IMG/VR virus record: IMGVR_UViG_3300007540_000148 | Coordinates: 1 to 21,542 of that record | DNA: 21,542 nucleotides | Origin: a virus | Strand: one strand, 5' to 3' | In this document: in pieces, positions 2,331-14,444 of the stretch | Layout: the number at the start of each line of letters is the position of its first letter | Numbering within the stretch: position 1 is the first letter of the stretch | Notes under the pieces: generated by a model | Told to the model about the DNA's origin: nothing | The model's database searches: none | Seen by the model: the letters and a program-made list of their open reading frames with translations, nothing else | Program-made: the position numbers and the translations under genes

Positions 2331-2551
2331 TGGAGACAAGGTATCCCGGCACGAAGCTGCCCGATATTATCAGCACGTATCAGGATGAAGGCCAAGGCGA
2401 TAGGACTGCTGAAGTATACCGCCTTGGTAGTTCATACGGTATCCGATACAGCGAAGGCGATAAGCATTGGAATGGTTTCTATGCGACACGTCTTGATGAT
2501 GTCGAAGCAATAGCAAAGGACTGGGTACTCAAGAACCCCATCAGGATTTAA
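2330..2551 (+). CDS. hypothetical 73-aa protein
   Basis: This small, soluble, mixed-charge protein is of unknown function. Its ATG overlaps the stop of the exonuclease gene (TGATG), which indicates coupled translation in the same rightward operon. It has many aromatic residues for its size (YRLGSSYGIRYSEGDKHWNGFYATR, split around residues 31-54), suggesting a compact beta-rich fold. No membrane segment, signal peptide or metal-binding motif is seen. A TTG three bases upstream is in frame, but the ATG is preferred. Its last 11 bases overlap the end of the convergent nuclease gene. It could be an accessory to the exonuclease, but only its position supports that. Confidence 0.6.
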   Translation: METRYPGTKLPDIISTYQDEGQGDRTAEVYRLGSSYGIRYSEGDKHWNGFYATRLDDVEAIAKDWVLKNPIRI

Positions 2552-3047
2552 GCGTTAATCCAAGTGCTGTCTCCCACGTATCCTCTTCAATACTGGGGGA
2601 CAGCATCTTTGATAAGGCCATGCGCCTAGTGAGCTGTTTGGTAATTTCATCAATAGGAAAGAAGGCTATCTTTCTCAGGTCTAACGCTACGCAAGCAACA
2701 ATATCACAGTCGTCTATGGTCAGTGCTTTTTTCGGTAAGCTCTTGCTGACCTGCCATTGGTATCCGTGTTTATCATTCGTCTTCAACGTGGACTTAACTT
2801 GAACCCGGATGATGTCTTGGTTTCTGACAGCGATGATGTCCATACCTTCGGCGTCGATGATCGAAGGACTCCATCCGAAGGTAAACAGGACGCTACAGGT
2901 TAGATGCTCGCCTGCGGTTCCTATGTGTTTAGCACTAAGCAATAGTCTCAAGGCGCGCAGCGTGACGCTCAGTTCTATTGGTAGTTTGCTTGTATAGTTT
3001 ACTGTCCCGCAGTTGTGCTGCTGCTTCCTTCCAATCACCCGCCTCAA
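2541..3047 (-). CDS. PD-(D/E)XK endonuclease, I-Ssp6803I/PDDEXK_5-like
   Basis: This nuclease of up to 168 aa closes the late operon. The core GTAGEHL gives Glu47, GMDIIAV gives Asp70 and IIRVQVKST gives Gln83 and Lys85, the E...D...QxK arrangement. The rVQVKst strand and the later DCDIVACVALD and FFPIDEI segments resemble the family that includes the intron homing enzyme I-Ssp6803I (PF11645); that link is from pattern memory. The first ATG at 3047 would overlap the lysozyme by 113 bp, and the first 35 or so residues look unlike the domain. An alternative TTG start at 2942, with GAGA upstream and overlapping the lysozyme stop, would give 133 aa and is at least as likely. It may be a free-standing homing nuclease or a host-DNA-degrading enzyme. 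Confidence 0.65.
   Translation of the reverse strand: MRRVIGRKQQHNCGTVNYTSKLPIELSVTLRALRLLLSAKHIGTAGEHLTCSVLFTFGWSPSIIDAEGMDIIAVRNQDIIRVQVKSTLKTNDKHGYQWQVSKSLPKKALTIDDCDIVACVALDLRKIAFFPIDEITKQLTRRMALSKMLSPSIEEDTWETALGLTLKS
2565..2605 (+). terminator. candidate terminator hairpin of the rightward operon
   Basis: TGCTGTCTCCC (2565-2575) pairs with GGGGGACAGCA (2595-2605), giving an 11-bp stem with one G-T pair and a 19-base loop. It begins 14 bases after the stop of the rightward operon. The tail TCTTTGAT is only partly T-rich, so efficiency is uncertain. The hairpin lies inside the 3' coding part of the convergent nuclease gene, so the same bases encode protein on the other strand. On the minus strand no T-tract follows it. 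Confidence 0.4.
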
Positions 3048-3375
3048 TAGCTGCGTGATGCTTGACGAATTTCTGATATCGGCTTCGACCTAGCTGGAAT
3101 GCCAAGCTGATGATAGTGACTTGTGCATCCTCTGGCATATTATCTAGGTCAGGATGTAGCCACTTCGCATCATTGACAGCAACCTGCACGTCTTTCTTAA
3201 ACACTTCATGCACACGCTCTTCTGCAACAGGCGCACCAACAGGCCATCCATACTCAGGATCGTCGGGATTAATTTTGTGGCCGATACCTAATGTAAGGGC
3301 ATTTTCTGTACAACGGTACACCCTATACTCACAACCTTCATCCTGCTCAAGAAGCTGCCGCAAACGGGTCATCAT
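2935..3375 (-). CDS. endolysin, T4-type GH24 lysozyme (muramidase)
   Basis: This 146-aa lysozyme cleaves the peptidoglycan MurNAc-GlcNAc bond at the end of infection. The N terminus matches the GH24 signature: DEG with catalytic Glu13, VYRCTEN, then LTLGIGH with Thr28. The position of T4 Asp20 holds Cys22, giving the E-C-T arrangement also seen in many other phage lysozymes, so activity is expected. No signal peptide or SAR anchor is visible, so release should depend on the holin upstream. The length fits the family (T4 lysozyme is 164 aa). The ATG overlaps the stop of the 46-aa gene (ATGA), with AAGG just upstream; a second ATG follows at once. The gene for the following nuclease begins within or at its end. 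Confidence 0.93.
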   Translation of the reverse strand: MMTRLRQLLEQDEGCEYRVYRCTENALTLGIGHKINPDDPEYGWPVGAPVAEERVHEVFKKDVQVAVNDAKWLHPDLDNMPEDAQVTIISLAFQLGRSRYQKFVKHHAAIEAGDWKEAAAQLRDSKLYKQTTNRTERHAARLETIA

Positions 3376-4248: not shown

Positions 4249-4396
4249 TCCTCATCTCACGAATCGTCTGAACTATTCTCAAACCGAACCATATCGCCGA
4301 TAGGGCCGCTGACAGGGCAGGTAGCCACTCCATTAAAGCTGCTGCTGTAATGCCTAAACTTCCCCAATCAAAGATGCGAATATCGTCTTGGTTCAT
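4229..4396 (-). CDS. 55-aa single-TM small protein
   Basis: This short gene starts with an ATG that overlaps the stop of the preceding 31-aa gene (TAATG) and has GAGG 8 bases upstream, a proper ribosome binding site. The protein has an acidic N terminus, a hydrophobic stretch with Trp and Leu (ITAAALMEWLPALSAALSAI, residues 16-35) and a basic C-terminal tail (REMRNDGRRD). This fits one inner-membrane helix. It overlaps the coiled-coil gene by 20 bases. It could be a small holin, antiholin or pinholin-like regulator next to the 3TM holin, but no family is recognised. Evidence that it is real: start signal, stop/start overlaps and a sensible membrane-protein composition. Confidence 0.72.
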   Translation of the reverse strand: MNQDDIRIFDWGSLGITAAALMEWLPALSAALSAIWFGLRIVQTIREMRNDGRRD

Positions 4397-4491
4397 TAGC
4401 TTTTCCTCAAAACCAAGATTATCAATAGCACAATTAACCCGGCTGTCACTAGGTCAGGTGTTGACCACATGCTCATTCCGGGCGGCATCAT
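4396..4491 (-). CDS. 31-aa single-TM miniprotein
   Basis: This tiny reading frame starts at an ATG overlapping the stop of the 86-aa gene (TAATG) and ends at a TAA that overlaps the start of the 55-aa gene (TAATG). After a Met/Pro-rich N terminus it is a single hydrophobic helix (LVTAGLIVLLIILVLRKS, residues 14-31) with a basic end, typical of a membrane miniprotein. It completes the chain of genes between the fibre accessory gene and the lysozyme. It may act with the holin. The ribosome binding site is weak, so expression would rely on coupling; the evidence is packing and composition only. Confidence 0.58.
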   Translation of the reverse strand: MMPPGMSMWSTPDLVTAGLIVLLIILVLRKS

Positions 4492-4751
4492 TATGATGCC
4501 TGAGTGTATAGGTGAGCAGCGTAAGCAACCTTCACTGCGTCTGTGAACACTTGACCTGCAATCGCTGCCACGTCTGCATCTTCAGCAGTTAAGTCTGCGT
4601 CAGGCATTACCACATGACGATGGAAGGTACGGCTGATCTCAGTACCGTCTTCAGCAATTATTGTAGCTGTGCGAACCTGAACTACAGAATAACCCGCAGC
4701 TAAGTTTAGTATCTCGATCTTGTCGTTCTTTGTTTCTTTAGTCAGTGCCAT
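4491..4751 (-). CDS. conserved small phage protein, unknown function
   Basis: This 86-aa soluble protein has an excellent ribosome binding site (AAGGAG, 8 bases before the ATG). It starts MALTKETKNDKIEIL and has a VQVRTATIIAEDG strand, an SRTFHRHVV segment (with adjacent His-Arg-His, about 42-47), then an acidic region and a C-terminal helix with TDAVKVAYAAHL. I recall similar proteins near the tail-fibre and lysis genes of other marine phages, all without assigned function. It sits between the last fibre-like gene and the lysis chain. A role in tail-fibre assembly or as a minor virion protein is possible from position only. Confidence 0.72.
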   Translation of the reverse strand: MALTKETKNDKIEILNLAAGYSVVQVRTATIIAEDGTEISRTFHRHVVMPDADLTAEDADVAAIAGQVFTDAVKVAYAAHLYTQAS

Positions 4752-4795
4752 TGTTTATCTCCTTTGGCTTTAGGACTGTCCACGCTCAAGGCGCA

Positions 4796-5794
4796 TTAAA
4801 TTTCAAATAAACCTTGCACCCACAAATTTGATGAAGCGCCAGAAACATATTGTGCATCCACTTTGCACTTACCGAGTCTCTCTGCTTTAAACTTAGTGCT
4901 ACCAGTTATATCACAAGCAGCAACACCACCTCTCATAAAGTAAATATTACTTGGGATAGTGCCTCCAGTATAAGCTGTGCCAGTTGCAACATCATAAAAC
5001 TTCACAGTAAACTGGGTTGTGGTAGATGACTGAATACCTGCGGTGTATTGTGGGTCTACACAACTTACAATCACATCATTAGCACTTGCTGATGTAGGAT
5101 GCGTTATCGTCCAAGTATCTGTGCCATTCCATGATCCAGTGAATGTTCCAGAATTATCAGTAAGAATAGTAGTAGCACCATTTGTTTTACCATGAATTTG
5201 CTGACGTGTTTCTACTGTAAAACTTGTTTTAGATCGTGACGTTGTTTCATACGGAGACCCTGTTGTGTCATCTCCAAACCCCTCGATTGCTACAACAGAG
5301 CCAGTTGAGTCACTATGGGTTTCTGATGCGTGAGTAAATACCCAAGTGCCATCCGCAATGGTATATTCAGCATACCATTCACCATCGGTCAAAGCTGCAC
5401 TAGATGCCATAGGGCCAAAGTACGAATGAGCCACAACAGCTGTTCCACTCGTTCTTGCCCAGAATGGATGGTATAATGAAATAATTGCGCTTGAATTACC
5501 TACACTAGCACCAAAAGATAGATTGCCGTTTGCATATCCTTCGTCAGGAGTGACTAAAAGACTTCCAATTTTCTGCCCTGTAAAACTATAATTTAAAATT
5601 ATGTTTCCATCAGACTCCGTAACAGGTGTAACCGAGTCAAGACCAACAGGGCGGTGATCTGCATCATCAATAACATACCAACCAGAACTATCGCTGTTTT
5701 GTCGAAGGACACAAGAAACTACTCTATATTTTCTACCATCATCTCCAATGACAAAATCATCTGCCATTCTATTGAATACTTTAGTAAGAGCCAT
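4796..5794 (-). CDS. tail fibre-related virion protein, paralogue of the fibre distal half
   Basis: This 332-aa protein is rich in Ser, Thr, Gly and beta-prone residues, like a fibre or adhesin. It lines up with the distal half of the T7-type fibre encoded 0.9 kb upstream. Residues 24-85 (C, DDA.H.P, SVTP, NYS.T..KI) match fibre 366-422. Modules with THP/W-TITHP at 149-196 and 221-268 match fibre 474-520 and 551-597. The end (residues 282-332, ending NLWV) matches fibre 609-660. It starts with MALTKVFNRMADDF and lacks the fibre's virion-attachment domain, so it may attach through another protein or act as a separate receptor-binding subunit. AGGA lies 8 bases before the ATG. The relationship is read by eye from motif order; a host-recognition role is inference. 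Confidence 0.74.
   Translation of the reverse strand: MALTKVFNRMADDFVIGDDGRKYRVVSCVLRQNSDSSGWYVIDDADHRPVGLDSVTPVTESDGNIILNYSFTGQKIGSLLVTPDEGYANGNLSFGASVGNSSAIISLYHPFWARTSGTAVVAHSYFGPMASSAALTDGEWYAEYTIADGTWVFTHASETHSDSTGSVVAIEGFGDDTTGSPYETTSRSKTSFTVETRQQIHGKTNGATTILTDNSGTFTGSWNGTDTWTITHPTSASANDVIVSCVDPQYTAGIQSSTTTQFTVKFYDVATGTAYTGGTIPSNIYFMRGGVAACDITGSTKFKAERLGKCKVDAQYVSGASSNLWVQGLFEI
4991..5134 (-). repeat. ITHP module, second copy in the 332-aa protein
   Basis: Residues 221-268 of the 332-aa protein form a module of about 48 residues with W...WTITHP, then DV.VSC and TTQFTVKFYD. It aligns with residues 149-196 of the same protein and with two modules in the tail fibre. It probably folds as a small beta domain. 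Confidence 0.55.
5207..5350 (-). repeat. ITHP module, first copy in the 332-aa protein
   Basis: Residues 149-196 carry GTWVFTHAS, then a Val-rich strand and SKTSFTVET, the same order as the other modules but more diverged. Confidence 0.45.
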
Positions 5795-5836
5795 TGTAGT
5801 TTCCTTTTATTTGCTCCAAGCAGTGCTTACGCATTA

Positions 5837-6652
5837 TTACGCTGCACGATAACAAAGGTTGCCATGAATATCAGAAACACCTGAACTTAATTCAGAAACA
5901 ACAATAAAATCTGACCCACTAGCACTTCTGTTTTCATTTAGTAAAAGACTTGTTGCGTTCTCAAACATAAACAAAATAGGTTCATTTGAAAATGTCACGA
6001 CGCTAGTAACTACAGTGCCAGAGTAATATGCTGAGCCACTCACTGATGCTGAAGTAAACGGAAGACCTGTGATATAAACATCATTGCCTGAAGTGAGGCC
6101 AGTAGTATCGATATTTGATACATTAAAATCCACATAAACCATATTACCTATTTTGACATAATTACCATAAACAGTAGAGGAGCTTTCGTTTCCGCTAGAT
6201 GCTGCATCTGCAATCTTACCTGTCCACGTTCCCTCTTCATAGTCGTCGAATAGTTCACTTGTAGAACCTGAAGCATCTGAAGTGGCTGAGAAGTCGATGC
6301 CTTTACCTGATGTACCTATGACTAGGTTGCCAAGAAGAACATTTACATCGTTGCCAGAAATAGAAAGTTTGTTTGAATTATTAATTGCAAAGTAATGCTG
6401 GCCACCAGTTGGAACGTTAAAAAACCAAGCATCATCACTACCATCAGCTCCAATCCATCGGTCAGTGCCAACACCAAATCCAGTTCCAGAATTTTTAATT
6501 AGGCCATTTCCAGAGCCAGAACCATTAAGTGTTAAGTTCCCAGTTACAGTGCCAACACTTATGTCAATATTCTCAACGTCAACATTCTCAACGTCAACAT
6601 CATTAAACGATGGATTACGACCAAAAATGCCGCCTTGCTGCTTAATAGTCAT
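5837..6652 (-). CDS. tail fibre-like protein with DYEEGTW motif
   Basis: This 271-aa fibre-like structural protein begins with a short polar head (MTIKQQGGIFGRNPSF) and an acidic repeat (DVDVENVDVENIDI, 18-31). Gly/Ser/Thr/Asn-rich beta sequence follows, then GKGIDFSATSD and LFDDYEEGTWTGKI (about 125-155). This GIDF...DYEEGTW signature is frequent in tail or appendage proteins of aquatic phages, often near the receptor-binding tip. A C-terminal domain with YVKIGNMVYVDF (about 175-186) follows it. It lies 2 bases after the fibre stop, with GGAG upstream, so the fibre genes form one translational unit. Role in host recognition is inferred. The head repeat is encoded by a perfect 15-bp tandem duplication. 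Confidence 0.74.
   Translation of the reverse strand: MTIKQQGGIFGRNPSFNDVDVENVDVENIDISVGTVTGNLTLNGSGSGNGLIKNSGTGFGVGTDRWIGADGSDDAWFFNVPTGGQHYFAINNSNKLSISGNDVNVLLGNLVIGTSGKGIDFSATSDASGSTSELFDDYEEGTWTGKIADAASSGNESSSTVYGNYVKIGNMVYVDFNVSNIDTTGLTSGNDVYITGLPFTSASVSGSAYYSGTVVTSVVTFSNEPILFMFENATSLLLNENRSASGSDFIVVSELSSGVSDIHGNLCYRAA
6569..6598. repeat. 15-bp tandem repeat, two perfect copies
   Basis: ATTCTCAACGTCAAC is present twice head to tail (6569-6583 and 6584-6598), with a partly matching third copy before it. It adds 5-residue units of VENVD type in frame near the N terminus of the 271-aa fibre protein. Being a multiple of three, slippage would change length without breaking the frame. Confidence 0.8.
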
Positions 6653-6654
6653 CT

Positions 6655-8637
6655 TTAGGACTCCATATCTGCATATACCCAGAAATTATTTCCTGCGACA
6701 TTTGACCAGTTTGCAACAGGAACAACAGCATGACCTCTGCGAACAGAGAAAGTTGTTGCGCTGTCCATCTTGCTATGAACATCAAAATTTCTCCGATACC
6801 AGAATTTCATATCTGTATCTTCTGTTGTGACTTTTGTTCCAGTCCAGTCATAAAAACCGACTTCAAAGTACGTTGACGCAATATCCTCAACAACAGGAAC
6901 ATATCCACCTTGATGCGAGGTTAATTGAACGTTGTAACTTGCACCCGCATCAACATGAGTAACTCTAAGGTTATTACCTGCTGTCCATGTAAACGCCGAA
7001 GGGCTATCAACATTGTTTGAAAGTGATGTATTCCAGACCCAAGCTGAACCGTTATAATTTACATATCCGTTCAAATCATCCATGATCTTAATAACAACAC
7101 TAGATGCATCCCAGCTTACAAAAGGCACAGTTAGTCTCGTACCATTAATACAAGTTACATTTACTGCGTCAGCAATGTCAGCAACAGACGGGTGTGTGAT
7201 AGTTAAAACATTAGACGAAAAAGATGCAGTAATTGATCCGTCCCAAACAGGTGTTGTTGTTACAGTACCGCCACCTTCTACATAAAAGTTTAGAGGCGCA
7301 GCGGCTTTAACATTTGCATAGCTTGTCCCAACATCTCCACCAGCAACAACTCCATATGGAGCCAACGCATCATCTGCTCCCACAATAAATGTATTAATTT
7401 TACTGGCTGTTCGTGAGTAATTTACTCTAAATGTATAGGCATCTGGTTGTGTAACAGATGTTGCGTTCATTGGGGTATGACCAGCATCATCAAGCAATGA
7501 GAACGTACCACCAGAACTTCTTGGAATACAGCCAATGCTAAAGTGATTTTTATCTGGAGTACCACCGATATTACCTACCCTGTGGTAGCGATTATTCAAA
7601 GTTGCTCCAGAGCCGCTGTAAACAACTCCATCACCATAGTAAGTTATAGTTGAGCCTGCGGTTGTACTGTTTTTGTATGACCCAGATGGAACATATATTA
7701 AGCCACTTGCAGCAGCGATTGTTTCGTTAAAATCAGATGAGTTTTCAGTACCGCTTGATGATCCAGTATTATAGTCGCCTACTGCTCCGAAGTCTTTAAC
7801 TGAGACTGACTCTTGCAGCTTGTTCTCTACTGTTCGGGTCTGAGCGCCAGCACTGCCTTGGTTGTAATTGATGTTGCCACTGTCAGCATCAAGCGTATCA
7901 ATGGCATTACCGATAACGACTTCGATCTGAGCGTTAAGCGGTGGAGCCTCAGTAAATGTCAGCGTTGTGCCGGATACGGAGAAGCTGGATTTAAGCTGAT
8001 AAACGCCGTCAATATAGACTTGGGCGTTATTCTTTGAGCCGGGAGCTACGGTTAGAGTGAACGCTGTTTGAGCACCTGTGCCAGTAAAGACGTTGTTTGT
8101 AAAGTTAGCACCGACAATAGCGGCACCAGCGAGAACTTCAGCCGACTCAACAGAAACATTACCTTCAGTATCAAAAGATAGAATTTTGTTAGCACGAGCA
8201 GTTTGAGTAGGAAGCTCCATATTGACGCTGGTTGGGTCAGTTACTGGAGCGCGAACAGCACGATCAGATAGTTCTAATAGCTGTTGGTCAAATATTGTAA
8301 GGGCGTCAAGCTGTTCGTTAAGGGCAGACGCACGTAATTCACCTGCCGTTACGAAGTCGGTAGTGCGCTCAATATCACGAGCGCCAACGATGGTGATGCG
8401 GTCATTTAGGGTTGGCGTTGAAGCAATGCTTGAGCCGACTATAAGCGTAACGCTACCAGTACCGTTGGCATTGATTGTCACGGTGTAATCGGTTGCAAGT
8501 GTCAGCAACGTAGTGTTGAAATATACGTCTACGTCAGTGTTTACAAGGATTTCAAACGAGAACGCATATGGCCCTACACCAGCGCTACCAGTGTAGACGA
8601 TGCGCCTAGTAACAGCATTGATATTGTAGTCCGCCAT
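6655..8637 (-). CDS. tail fibre with T7 gp17-like N-terminal domain
   Basis: This 660-aa protein would be the main tail fibre. Residues 1 to about 150 are the T7 fibre N-terminal domain that docks to the tail (YTGSAGVGPYAFSFEI, the Asp-Tyr-Thr-Val strand, and helix LNEQLDALTIFDQQLLELSDRAV). A second beta domain follows (about 175-245, TGTGAQTAFTL, YIDGVYQL). SVKDFGAVGD (278-287) is the usual start of a pectate-lyase-like beta helix, but only about 75 residues remain before the next domain, so a full depolymerase helix does not fit. The distal half (366-660) contains two ITHP modules (474-520, 551-597) and an end domain, and recurs in the separate 332-aa protein. GAGG is well placed before the ATG. 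Confidence 0.9.
   Translation of the reverse strand: MADYNINAVTRRIVYTGSAGVGPYAFSFEILVNTDVDVYFNTTLLTLATDYTVTINANGTGSVTLIVGSSIASTPTLNDRITIVGARDIERTTDFVTAGELRASALNEQLDALTIFDQQLLELSDRAVRAPVTDPTSVNMELPTQTARANKILSFDTEGNVSVESAEVLAGAAIVGANFTNNVFTGTGAQTAFTLTVAPGSKNNAQVYIDGVYQLKSSFSVSGTTLTFTEAPPLNAQIEVVIGNAIDTLDADSGNINYNQGSAGAQTRTVENKLQESVSVKDFGAVGDYNTGSSSGTENSSDFNETIAAASGLIYVPSGSYKNSTTAGSTITYYGDGVVYSGSGATLNNRYHRVGNIGGTPDKNHFSIGCIPRSSGGTFSLLDDAGHTPMNATSVTQPDAYTFRVNYSRTASKINTFIVGADDALAPYGVVAGGDVGTSYANVKAAAPLNFYVEGGGTVTTTPVWDGSITASFSSNVLTITHPSVADIADAVNVTCINGTRLTVPFVSWDASSVVIKIMDDLNGYVNYNGSAWVWNTSLSNNVDSPSAFTWTAGNNLRVTHVDAGASYNVQLTSHQGGYVPVVEDIASTYFEVGFYDWTGTKVTTEDTDMKFWYRRNFDVHSKMDSATTFSVRRGHAVVPVANWSNVAGNNFWVYADMES
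6847..6987 (-). repeat. ITHP module, second copy in the tail fibre
   Basis: Fibre residues 551-597 (WTAGNNLRVTHVDAG, then STYFEVGFYD) match the other three modules in order of hydrophobic strands, with HVD replacing HPS. Confidence 0.5.
7078..7218 (-). repeat. ITHP module, first copy in the tail fibre
   Basis: Fibre residues 474-520 contain SNVLTITHPS, AVNVTC and SSVVIKIMD. They align closely with residues 225-268 of the 332-aa protein. Confidence 0.55.
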
Positions 8638-8674
8638 TTTAATTCCTCACGTTGACCGCAATCTATCACTCATA

Positions 8675-11890: not shown

Positions 11891-12711
11891 TACTGTACCC
11901 CTACATTAGAAACTGCATCGACCGCGCCTGCATCAACGCCATCACCTAATATATCACCAATAGCGCGTACAGCCTGTGGAGCCATTTCAGCAGCAGTCAT
12001 AAGTGCAGGTCCAGCAGCAGCGCCTATACCTGTTTGCAATGCAACATCAGCTATGTCTGATACTCCTACAGGCATACCTGCTTGTTCTTTAATTTTTAAC
12101 TCTCCAGCCGCCGGAGCGCCTGCATATGTGCCTCCAGCAACGGCAGCAGCTTTCTTGGTGGTTAATGCTGACGCAAGTTTTCTTATTGCCAAATGTAAAC
12201 CTTCTTGCCCTAGCTTACGTGCGCCAAATCCAGCACCAGCAGTAACCAATGCACCCCATGTACTTGGGTCTCTAAACATTCCTCGCGCCATACGCCATGA
12301 GCCAGATGCCGTCCAATTAGGTAGACGCTCATATTGATCCATCATATATACCCAGCGCATTGCGTTTTCACGAGAACCATTCGCATACAAGCGTGCTACT
12401 TGCGACATTGCTCCGGGTGGTATTTCAACTCCATCAACTTCACCGCCAAATGGTTGAGCGAAATTGTAATTAAACTCACCAATCAAGTTAATACCGTACC
12501 GTCCCGCTTCCTCATCCGTACCAGTAAACGGCTCACCTTGCATGAGGCGATACATGACTTTGGCATTATTCACGAACTTATGGTCCATCACCAAATGGTC
12601 TTCAGTGATAGATTGGTTCATTCTTTCTTCTTCTGATGAAGCTGGTTCGCCGGGTGGCGCGTAAAACATAGCTTCTTTTGCATCAGTCATTTCTGCAAAG
12701 ATGTCTGTCAT
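11890..12711 (-). CDS. internal virion protein of the ejection module
   Basis: This 273-aa protein has an N-terminal part resembling the front domain of marine podovirus internal proteins: DHLVMDHKFVNNAKVMYRL and GRYGINLIGEFNYNF (about 38-82). The C-terminal half is Ala/Gly-rich and mildly hydrophobic (GALVTAGAGFG, AAAVAGGTYAGAPAAG, TGIGAAAGPALMTAAEMAP), a composition that could insert in membranes. It overlaps both neighbours by a few bases (ATGA with the 578-aa gene, TAATG with the 1071-aa gene). It and the 1071-aa protein might together correspond to one longer internal protein elsewhere, but no frameshift is needed to explain the break. Role in DNA ejection is inferred. Confidence 0.7.
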   Translation of the reverse strand: MTDIFAEMTDAKEAMFYAPPGEPASSEEERMNQSITEDHLVMDHKFVNNAKVMYRLMQGEPFTGTDEEAGRYGINLIGEFNYNFAQPFGGEVDGVEIPPGAMSQVARLYANGSRENAMRWVYMMDQYERLPNWTASGSWRMARGMFRDPSTWGALVTAGAGFGARKLGQEGLHLAIRKLASALTTKKAAAVAGGTYAGAPAAGELKIKEQAGMPVGVSDIADVALQTGIGAAAGPALMTAAEMAPQAVRAIGDILGDGVDAGAVDAVSNVGVQ

Positions 12712-14444
12712 TGACTTAACTTCCTTTGCAGTAATTTAAGTTGGCGTCTAAGATCATCTCTTATATCTCGTTTAAGGCGTAAACCATCAAGCCTATCAAT
12801 ATAATCTTGAATTTCTTTTGGACCTGCATTTGCAAAATCAAAATTAACATACTGACCAAAACCTTGCTGTAATCTCTCACGAGCTTTTGTTAGGTCATTT
12901 AACTTTTTGTCACCTAAACCTTCTTGAACATATCTTTTTGCAGTTTCAAGTAAAAGTTCTGGTCTTTGATCTGGACTTTTTTTGGCTCGATCTTGGTTTT
13001 CTATATCATTCATTTTTTCAATTTCAGGAAGTGCTTCGGAAATATAAGCACCAACATCTTTAGGAACATCAGATCCAAAAGCACCCTTACGTTCTTTCAA
13101 GAAACTAATAACGCCTTTTTGTTGAGCATCGTTAAACTGTCTTAGCTTTTCTCTGAGGTTATTAGCTTCTTTTCCAAACACATTATTAGATTCTAATTTA
13201 ACATCTAAATCCACAGGATCGGTTACACGACCCTCAATAATCATTCGCGTTACAGTGTCAATGCCAGTTTCAGAGCTTTTTATTCTGGGCCTAAAATCTG
13301 GATTTTCTGCTAATTTTAAAACGTCTGGGTCAACTTTAATAACGCCTGACAAAGCAAGAGCTTTAAGTTCTAAAGCCGCCATAGCTCTTACTTCAGAAGT
13401 AGATGGTTCAGTATATAATGTTGCTACAAGCATATTATATTCTTGAGTGGTTTTTTCTTTAAATTGATCAGTTTTATTTTGCTTTTCTGTGTGTATAGCT
13501 GCGCGTTCGTCACGTATTTCGTCACGCACTCTTTCTTTGCCGTCTTCATCAAGGCTAAAATAAAGGGCTGTTTTGTTTCCAAACAAACCAACATTAATAT
13601 TAACTTGATCTGGGTTTTCACGAGCAAATTTACGGAGCGCATTGATCTTTGCGTTCGTCCGCATATCTTTAACAAATTCTCTAGTACGATCAATATTTAC
13701 AGCATCTTTAGTATTGATTGCTTGATCTATAAGAGACCTTTCCAGAACATCAAATTCTGCATCTACATCTAAAACCGCTTTACCATTAATTATGGTGTGA
13801 CCACCCTGAAAATTGTCAGCGATACTATAGAAAATATCTTTAGAACTTTCTAAGCCACTAGCAAATTTAGCAGCAACCGCTGCATTCCTAAGTTTATAGG
13901 ATTGCTCAAGTGCTGATTTGTAAATAGGTGCAGCTAAAGTACCAACGGTTGCCCTGTATTGAGCGGCGTATTTCCCGCCAAATTGAGACAACAGAGACCC
14001 ATGTCCGTTAGTTATTGCATCTATTTCCGTCTCAACATCGACCGGGTCTAATATATCACCGCCTTCAATAGCGGCAGAAAGTTGTGCCAACTTTGAACGA
14101 ACGTCAGTTTCTAATTCAACTCTAAGTTGCGCGCCTACAGCAGCACGAGAAGCTGCGCCAAAGATTGTGTCTTGATCGCCAACAATATCATCAATACTTA
14201 AACCAGCCTCAAGAGCAGTTTTGATTTGCTCTGGGTTTTGACCGAGCTTGTAGCCAAACTCTTCACCTTCAATCTTTGCTCGACGACCAGCTTCCTCAAA
14301 GGCATAGGAACTTATTTTATCTAACGCACTAGATAGACGTTGATAACCAGCAGCCTGAGTAGCGCCTGCTCCCGCATAATCAATGCGAGGCGGTGGCGCG
14401 AGGCTTATGCCAAGTGGGCGATAGCGAGGAAGACGTTCTGCCAT
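12708..14444 (-). CDS. internal virion protein, gp15-position, largely helical
   Basis: This 578-aa protein is in the position of T7 gp15. It begins MAERLPRYRPLGIS and continues with long charged helices rich in Lys, Glu, Arg and Asn across nearly all its length (for instance residues 35-75, 300-360 and 440-578). No enzymatic motif is recognised. I chose the ATG at 14444: GAGG lies 5 bases upstream and it starts just after the stop of the gp14-like gene. An ATG at 14507 would create a 56-bp overlap and add 21 residues unlike the rest. In T7 the gp15 protein forms part of the tube that carries DNA across the envelope. Assignment is by order and composition, not by recognised domain. Confidence 0.72.
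   Translation of the reverse strand: MAERLPRYRPLGISLAPPPRIDYAGAGATQAAGYQRLSSALDKISSYAFEEAGRRAKIEGEEFGYKLGQNPEQIKTALEAGLSIDDIVGDQDTIFGAASRAAVGAQLRVELETDVRSKLAQLSAAIEGGDILDPVDVETEIDAITNGHGSLLSQFGGKYAAQYRATVGTLAAPIYKSALEQSYKLRNAAVAAKFASGLESSKDIFYSIADNFQGGHTIINGKAVLDVDAEFDVLERSLIDQAINTKDAVNIDRTREFVKDMRTNAKINALRKFARENPDQVNINVGLFGNKTALYFSLDEDGKERVRDEIRDERAAIHTEKQNKTDQFKEKTTQEYNMLVATLYTEPSTSEVRAMAALELKALALSGVIKVDPDVLKLAENPDFRPRIKSSETGIDTVTRMIIEGRVTDPVDLDVKLESNNVFGKEANNLREKLRQFNDAQQKGVISFLKERKGAFGSDVPKDVGAYISEALPEIEKMNDIENQDRAKKSPDQRPELLLETAKRYVQEGLGDKKLNDLTKARERLQQGFGQYVNFDFANAGPKEIQDYIDRLDGLRLKRDIRDDLRRQLKLLQRKLSQ

Follow-up and report, generated by a model that had tools for sequence, protein, structure and literature searches.

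The 21,542-nucleotide stretch analysed here (positions 1 to 21,542 of IMG/VR virus record IMGVR_UViG_3300007540_000148, hereafter the window) probably carries a three-slot receptor-binding cluster of a podovirus-type phage, in which a module resembling the end of Escherichia phage N4 gp66 entered slots 1 and 3 separately, with tag-mediated attachment and glycan binding. Slot 1 encodes a long fibre that has a T7-gp17-like anchor, slots 2 and 3 are marked by the N-terminal tags MTIKQQGGIFGRNP and MALTKxxNRM respectively, and the 86-aa fourth gene is a conserved neighbour (Table 1). The bases of all three slots are kept while the distal parts are swapped from a common pool. According to the proposed model, diverged versions of one distal module were acquired separately as the slot-1 end and in slot 3. 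The short slot-3 protein would use its N-terminal tag to dock on either the tail or the slot-1 fibre, and both modules may bind surface glycans, by analogy with N4.

Table 1 Features of the fibre cluster, in window coordinates
Feature	Position	Strand	Basis or remark
Slot 1, 660-aa fibre, putative virion-anchored receptor-binding protein	6655..8637	-	reading frame open throughout
Probable fibre anchor region, ~residues 1-150	8188..8637	-	profile and Pfam matches
DUF4183-like domain, fibre residues 180-235	7933..8100	-	domain search
Fibre junction, VSVKDFGAVGD beta-helix entry motif	7770..7812	-	DNA identity to sister contig stops at 7774 (~codon 288)
Fibre distal N4-gp66-like module, residues 356-660	6658..7572	-	homology
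Slot 2, 271-aa protein, tag MTIKQQGGIFGRNP, no kinship to the module	5837..6652	-	
Slot 3, 332-aa protein made up of tag and distal module	4796..5794	-	reading frame open throughout
Slot-3 N-terminal tag, MALTKVFNRM	5765..5794	-	kept in 42 distinct slot-3 proteins
Short-protein module, first domain, residues 14-112 (R...DDA.H.P...DE...G.SVG)	5459..5755	-	
Short-protein module, C-terminal unit, residues 214-332	4799..5155	-	
86-aa conserved gene (MALTKETKNDKIE), last of the fibre cluster	4491..4751	-	

The 332-aa protein and fibre residues ~356–660 are homologous, confirming an earlier note, made from the sequence by eye, that had aligned the short protein with the distal half of the fibre. BLASTP pairs short-protein residues 3–331 with fibre residues 347–659 (E 1e-8, 22% identity), and the Smith-Waterman score of 164 lies well beyond that of shuffled sequences (n = 500; mean 50, sd 8, maximum 82). 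The HHalign comparison suggested in the note gave a significant score: a profile of the short protein and three Arthrobacter phage relatives matched fibre residues 359–659 with a probability of 98.3% and E 1.1e-14, while two control targets, the middle gene and the fibre of a relative, each remained below 0.2% probability with this profile. The gene in between is unrelated to both, as judged by Smith-Waterman and HHalign. No significant similarity could be detected between the two module copies at the DNA level. Each protein has a C-terminal unit and a middle insert of ~100 aa, but an internal-repeat test found no significant similarity between insert and end unit, and the two ITHP modules described in the earlier note thus lack statistical support as an internal repeat. 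A local assembly artefact is not indicated, since 12,514 bases containing all three genes are identical in a second IMG/VR contig, which may share the same sample. An Rfam search gave no match, and promoter and terminator scans returned counts no higher than in shuffled sequence.

Counterparts of the short protein's first domain were found by phage-genome search in minor tail or fibre proteins from phages of Arthrobacter, Rhodococcus and Aeromonas (31–47% identity), and Vibrio phage F89 g1 contains the module in full. Searching with the fibre distal half alone recovers the same Arthrobacter phage set. The Arthrobacter minor tail proteins Beagle gp50, Odyssey395 gp43 and gp51, Qui gp38 and Anjali gp14 share the same C-terminal module, with domain 1 up to 42–47% identical to that of the short protein, and some of these genomes contain two copies. 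They belong to phages of other types and hosts, and the Arthrobacter and Rhodococcus modules, in contrast to both window copies, lack the ~100-aa middle insert. The module is C-terminal in all complete copies. The Aeromonas R1 module in turn matches the E. coli phage N4 appendage protein gp66 (E 9e-23). A module-family profile that includes this bridging Aeromonas sequence retrieves N4 gp66 from the PDB with E 7.2e-16; with the Aeromonas sequence omitted, N4 gp66 (PDB 9lc0) is the sole significant PDB match, with E 6.9e-10. The short protein by itself has N4 gp66 as its top PDB match at only E 0.054, and a PDB search with the fibre end by itself gave no match. On the basis of these profile comparisons, the module of both fibre genes is related to the end of gp66. 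Homology to this 60 kDa appendage (PDB 9lc0, 9yf4, 9yf5) is limited to its distal part (~residues 283–517), with the first part of domain 1 unmatched, and just ~residues 1–80 of gp66 are modelled in 9yf4 and 9yf5. No family for the module was found in Pfam or NCBIfam, and PHROG yielded only a partial match for the short protein (phrog_24580, 'tail fiber protein'). These comparisons connect a poorly annotated module of an uncultured phage with the appendage of N4 and with tail proteins from phages of Gram-positive hosts, so that its role becomes accessible to experiment in a laboratory phage.

Domain 1 was also sought in the genomes of bacteria and archaea, where none of 25 pattern matches was confirmed. 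Alignment A1 proved too diverse to serve in pattern scans. IMG/VR searches with the modules of the Aeromonas phage and of contig L138 revealed no further distinct members. A 143-aa protein encoded on another contig (L215:5902-6330) has an N-terminal hydrophobic segment and, of the module, just the first domain; it may represent a membrane-anchored or secreted form of a phage adhesin domain.

Related IMG/VR contigs share a usual gene order, in which the fibre is followed by a protein starting with MTIKQQGGIFGRNP, a protein starting with M[AST]LTKxxNRM and an 82–95-aa gene starting with MALTK..NDKIE. The 332-aa gene is the third gene of this order, which is broken by a few contigs (slots 2 and 3 are swapped in L019). 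The first ~290–322 residues of the slot-1 fibres are conserved in the related contigs, with 87% identity over fibre residues 1–322 in contigs L008–L010. In slot 3, the first ten residues, M[AST]LTKxxNRM, are kept in 42 distinct proteins from 27 clusters that are mutually unrelated past residue 60, and many of the tag-bearing proteins are large fibre or spike proteins, several of which start a beta-helix. The short gene cannot be described as a fibre half freed from its virion anchor, as had been proposed, because it starts with the conserved tag that marks an established third slot. The accompanying suggestion of a second adhesin, possibly assembling on the first, is consistent with the evidence, and second receptor-binding proteins are known to attach via a short conserved N-terminal peptide (PMC6872550).

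The base of the fibre looks like a virion anchor. The fibre-family profile matches orf22 of PDB 9efk at residues 1–121 (E 6e-17), both 9efk orf22 and the tailspike Dpo31 are matched within residues 1–128, and 7 of the 12 fibre-family members match the Pfam T7 tail fibre N-terminal family (Phage_T7_tail). Pfam and PDB sequence searches of the fibre detected neither a T4gp10-like docking domain, at the place of which a DUF4183-like domain is situated, nor a docking domain for the tag.

Distal parts are exchanged between phages and between slots. A closely related contig with the same backbone (IMGVR_UViG_3300021960_000289; L009/L240, hereafter the sister contig) shows 90% DNA identity at window positions 7774–8657, 89% at 4278–4802 and 85–87% over other stretches. 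Between 4802 and 7774 it differs in the fibre end, in most of slot 2, where two short matching pieces only are left, and in all of slot 3. The point at which the two fibres diverge falls at the VSVKDFGAVGD motif, and no copy of the module occurs anywhere in the 33 kb of the sister contig. The complete cluster of contig L138 contains the module solely in slot 3; it is a case of the short form alone, for which the earlier note had suggested a search. A recent transfer from slot to slot is seen elsewhere: the 545-aa spike end of the slot-1 fibre in L012 (6438-8870) is 87–93% identical to slot-3 proteins of L013 (10003-11682), L095 (684-2363) and L148 (5141-6820).

Two separate acquisitions into two slots are the most likely history of the window copies, and appear better supported by the sequence comparisons than an older duplication, because the sister contig is free of the module, because the short and long copies are 34% and 30% identical, respectively, to the Beagle or Odyssey395 modules of Arthrobacter phages and only 22% to each other, because significant DNA similarity between them is lacking, and because there is a precedent in Odyssey395 (L088, MT889394.1). 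In this phage, the separate tail genes gp43 and gp51 (5998-8130 and 11911-13608) each carry the module, and the two copies come from different branches of the family and are not sisters (AU p 1.5e-62). The history favoured in the earlier note, namely an intragenomic copying of the fibre's distal half to slot 3 (or of slot 3 to the fibre end) with later divergence, would explain the co-linear homology over the full length of the module in a single genome, and sisterhood of the window copies is compatible with the module tree (AU p 0.379), albeit a tree of low resolution. It nevertheless appears rather unlikely. A duplication within the genome would be expected to leave both copies in close relatives, yet the same-backbone closest relative, 85–90% identical on either side, has neither, and L138 has only that of slot 3. 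The copies would also be expected to be mutual closest relatives, which by identity they are not, each being nearer to the Arthrobacter modules than to its partner, although the tree permits it. The middle insert present in both copies could reflect a shared origin; however, Vibrio F89, Aeromonas R1, N4 and L138 also have a segment at this position. Nor are shared ends enriched in slots of the same genome: of the slot-1/slot-3 pairs, 1 of 25 within a genome shares at least 120 aa compared to 60 of 600 between genomes, the within-genome sample being small. Both modules are lower in GC and GC3 than the fibre base (0.41 versus 0.47), which is a weak sign of foreign origin because the same holds for slot 2 and, in terms of GC3, for the internal virion gene.

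With regard to function, we infer that both modules serve as glycan-binding tips, that of slot 1 on the main fibre and that of slot 3 on a side fibre held by its tag, each presumably trimeric. In N4, the NGR glycan is the presumed ligand of the gp66 appendages (PMC12892993; PMC12633501). The two window modules could bind different glycans, or reinforce binding to a single one. A more far-reaching and tentative proposal is that one virion presents two diverged versions of one adhesin fold at two attachment points, leading to two-point or two-glycan recognition, with the modules interchangeable between slots by means of the standard VxDFGAxGD joint and the tags. AlphaFold2 models of the two module proteins are of low confidence (pLDDT 59 and 61, from seven-sequence alignments). 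Foldseek searches with these weak models gave no PDB match at E ≤0.001; the short-protein model has a weak match to the R1-pyocin fibre (E 0.57).

The module might instead serve mainly in folding or trimerisation, or as a structural end domain, with receptor binding located elsewhere. All complete copies being C-terminal is in keeping with such a role, and C-terminal lectin-like modules can indeed serve trimerisation, KP32 gp38 being an example (PMC13082707). However, the part exchanged between phages of the same backbone is the last module, as would be predicted for a specificity determinant, and the N4 appendages are thought to bind glycan, making a mainly structural role unlikely. That the short protein is released rather than carried on the virion, acting perhaps as a decoy or unattached adhesin, is highly improbable: it is without a large anchor domain, but its slot position and tag are common to many large fibre or spike proteins, and short N-terminal peptides are a known mode of attachment.

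The cluster is a modular multi-protein receptor-binding cluster of a kind already known. As in the anchor-branched systems of G7C (gp66/gp63.1), KP32, KP34 and K1-5, an anchored first receptor-binding protein is accompanied by further ones that combine a short conserved peptide at the N-terminus with a variable remainder. The window cluster differs in having three slots, in the same module occupying two of these, and in the lack of a detectable T4gp10-like domain. What is unusual is the presence of one module type in two slots of a single cluster, as well as the tie between N4 gp66 and tails of phages with Gram-positive hosts. The shuffling of receptor-binding protein parts is itself already established (PMC10684548); ends moving between defined slots provide a concrete case of host recognition rebuilt from standard parts. 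The closest cultured phage is the Methylophilales phage MEP301, an OM43 phage (53% identity for tail tubular protein B, 62% over fibre residues 5–163), which is a lead only as to the host; its own fibre cluster gave no match to the module.

Two further features of this podovirus-type genome lie outside the cluster. A serine recombinase gene of the Resolvase family (731-1381, + strand, opposite to the fibre genes) adjoins a gene of the lambda-exonuclease family (1308-2330). On the - strand (2541-3375), a lysozyme gene (2935-3375) and a 168-aa reading frame (2541-3047) overlap by ~110 bases as called, and the latter may start downstream of the listed TTG.
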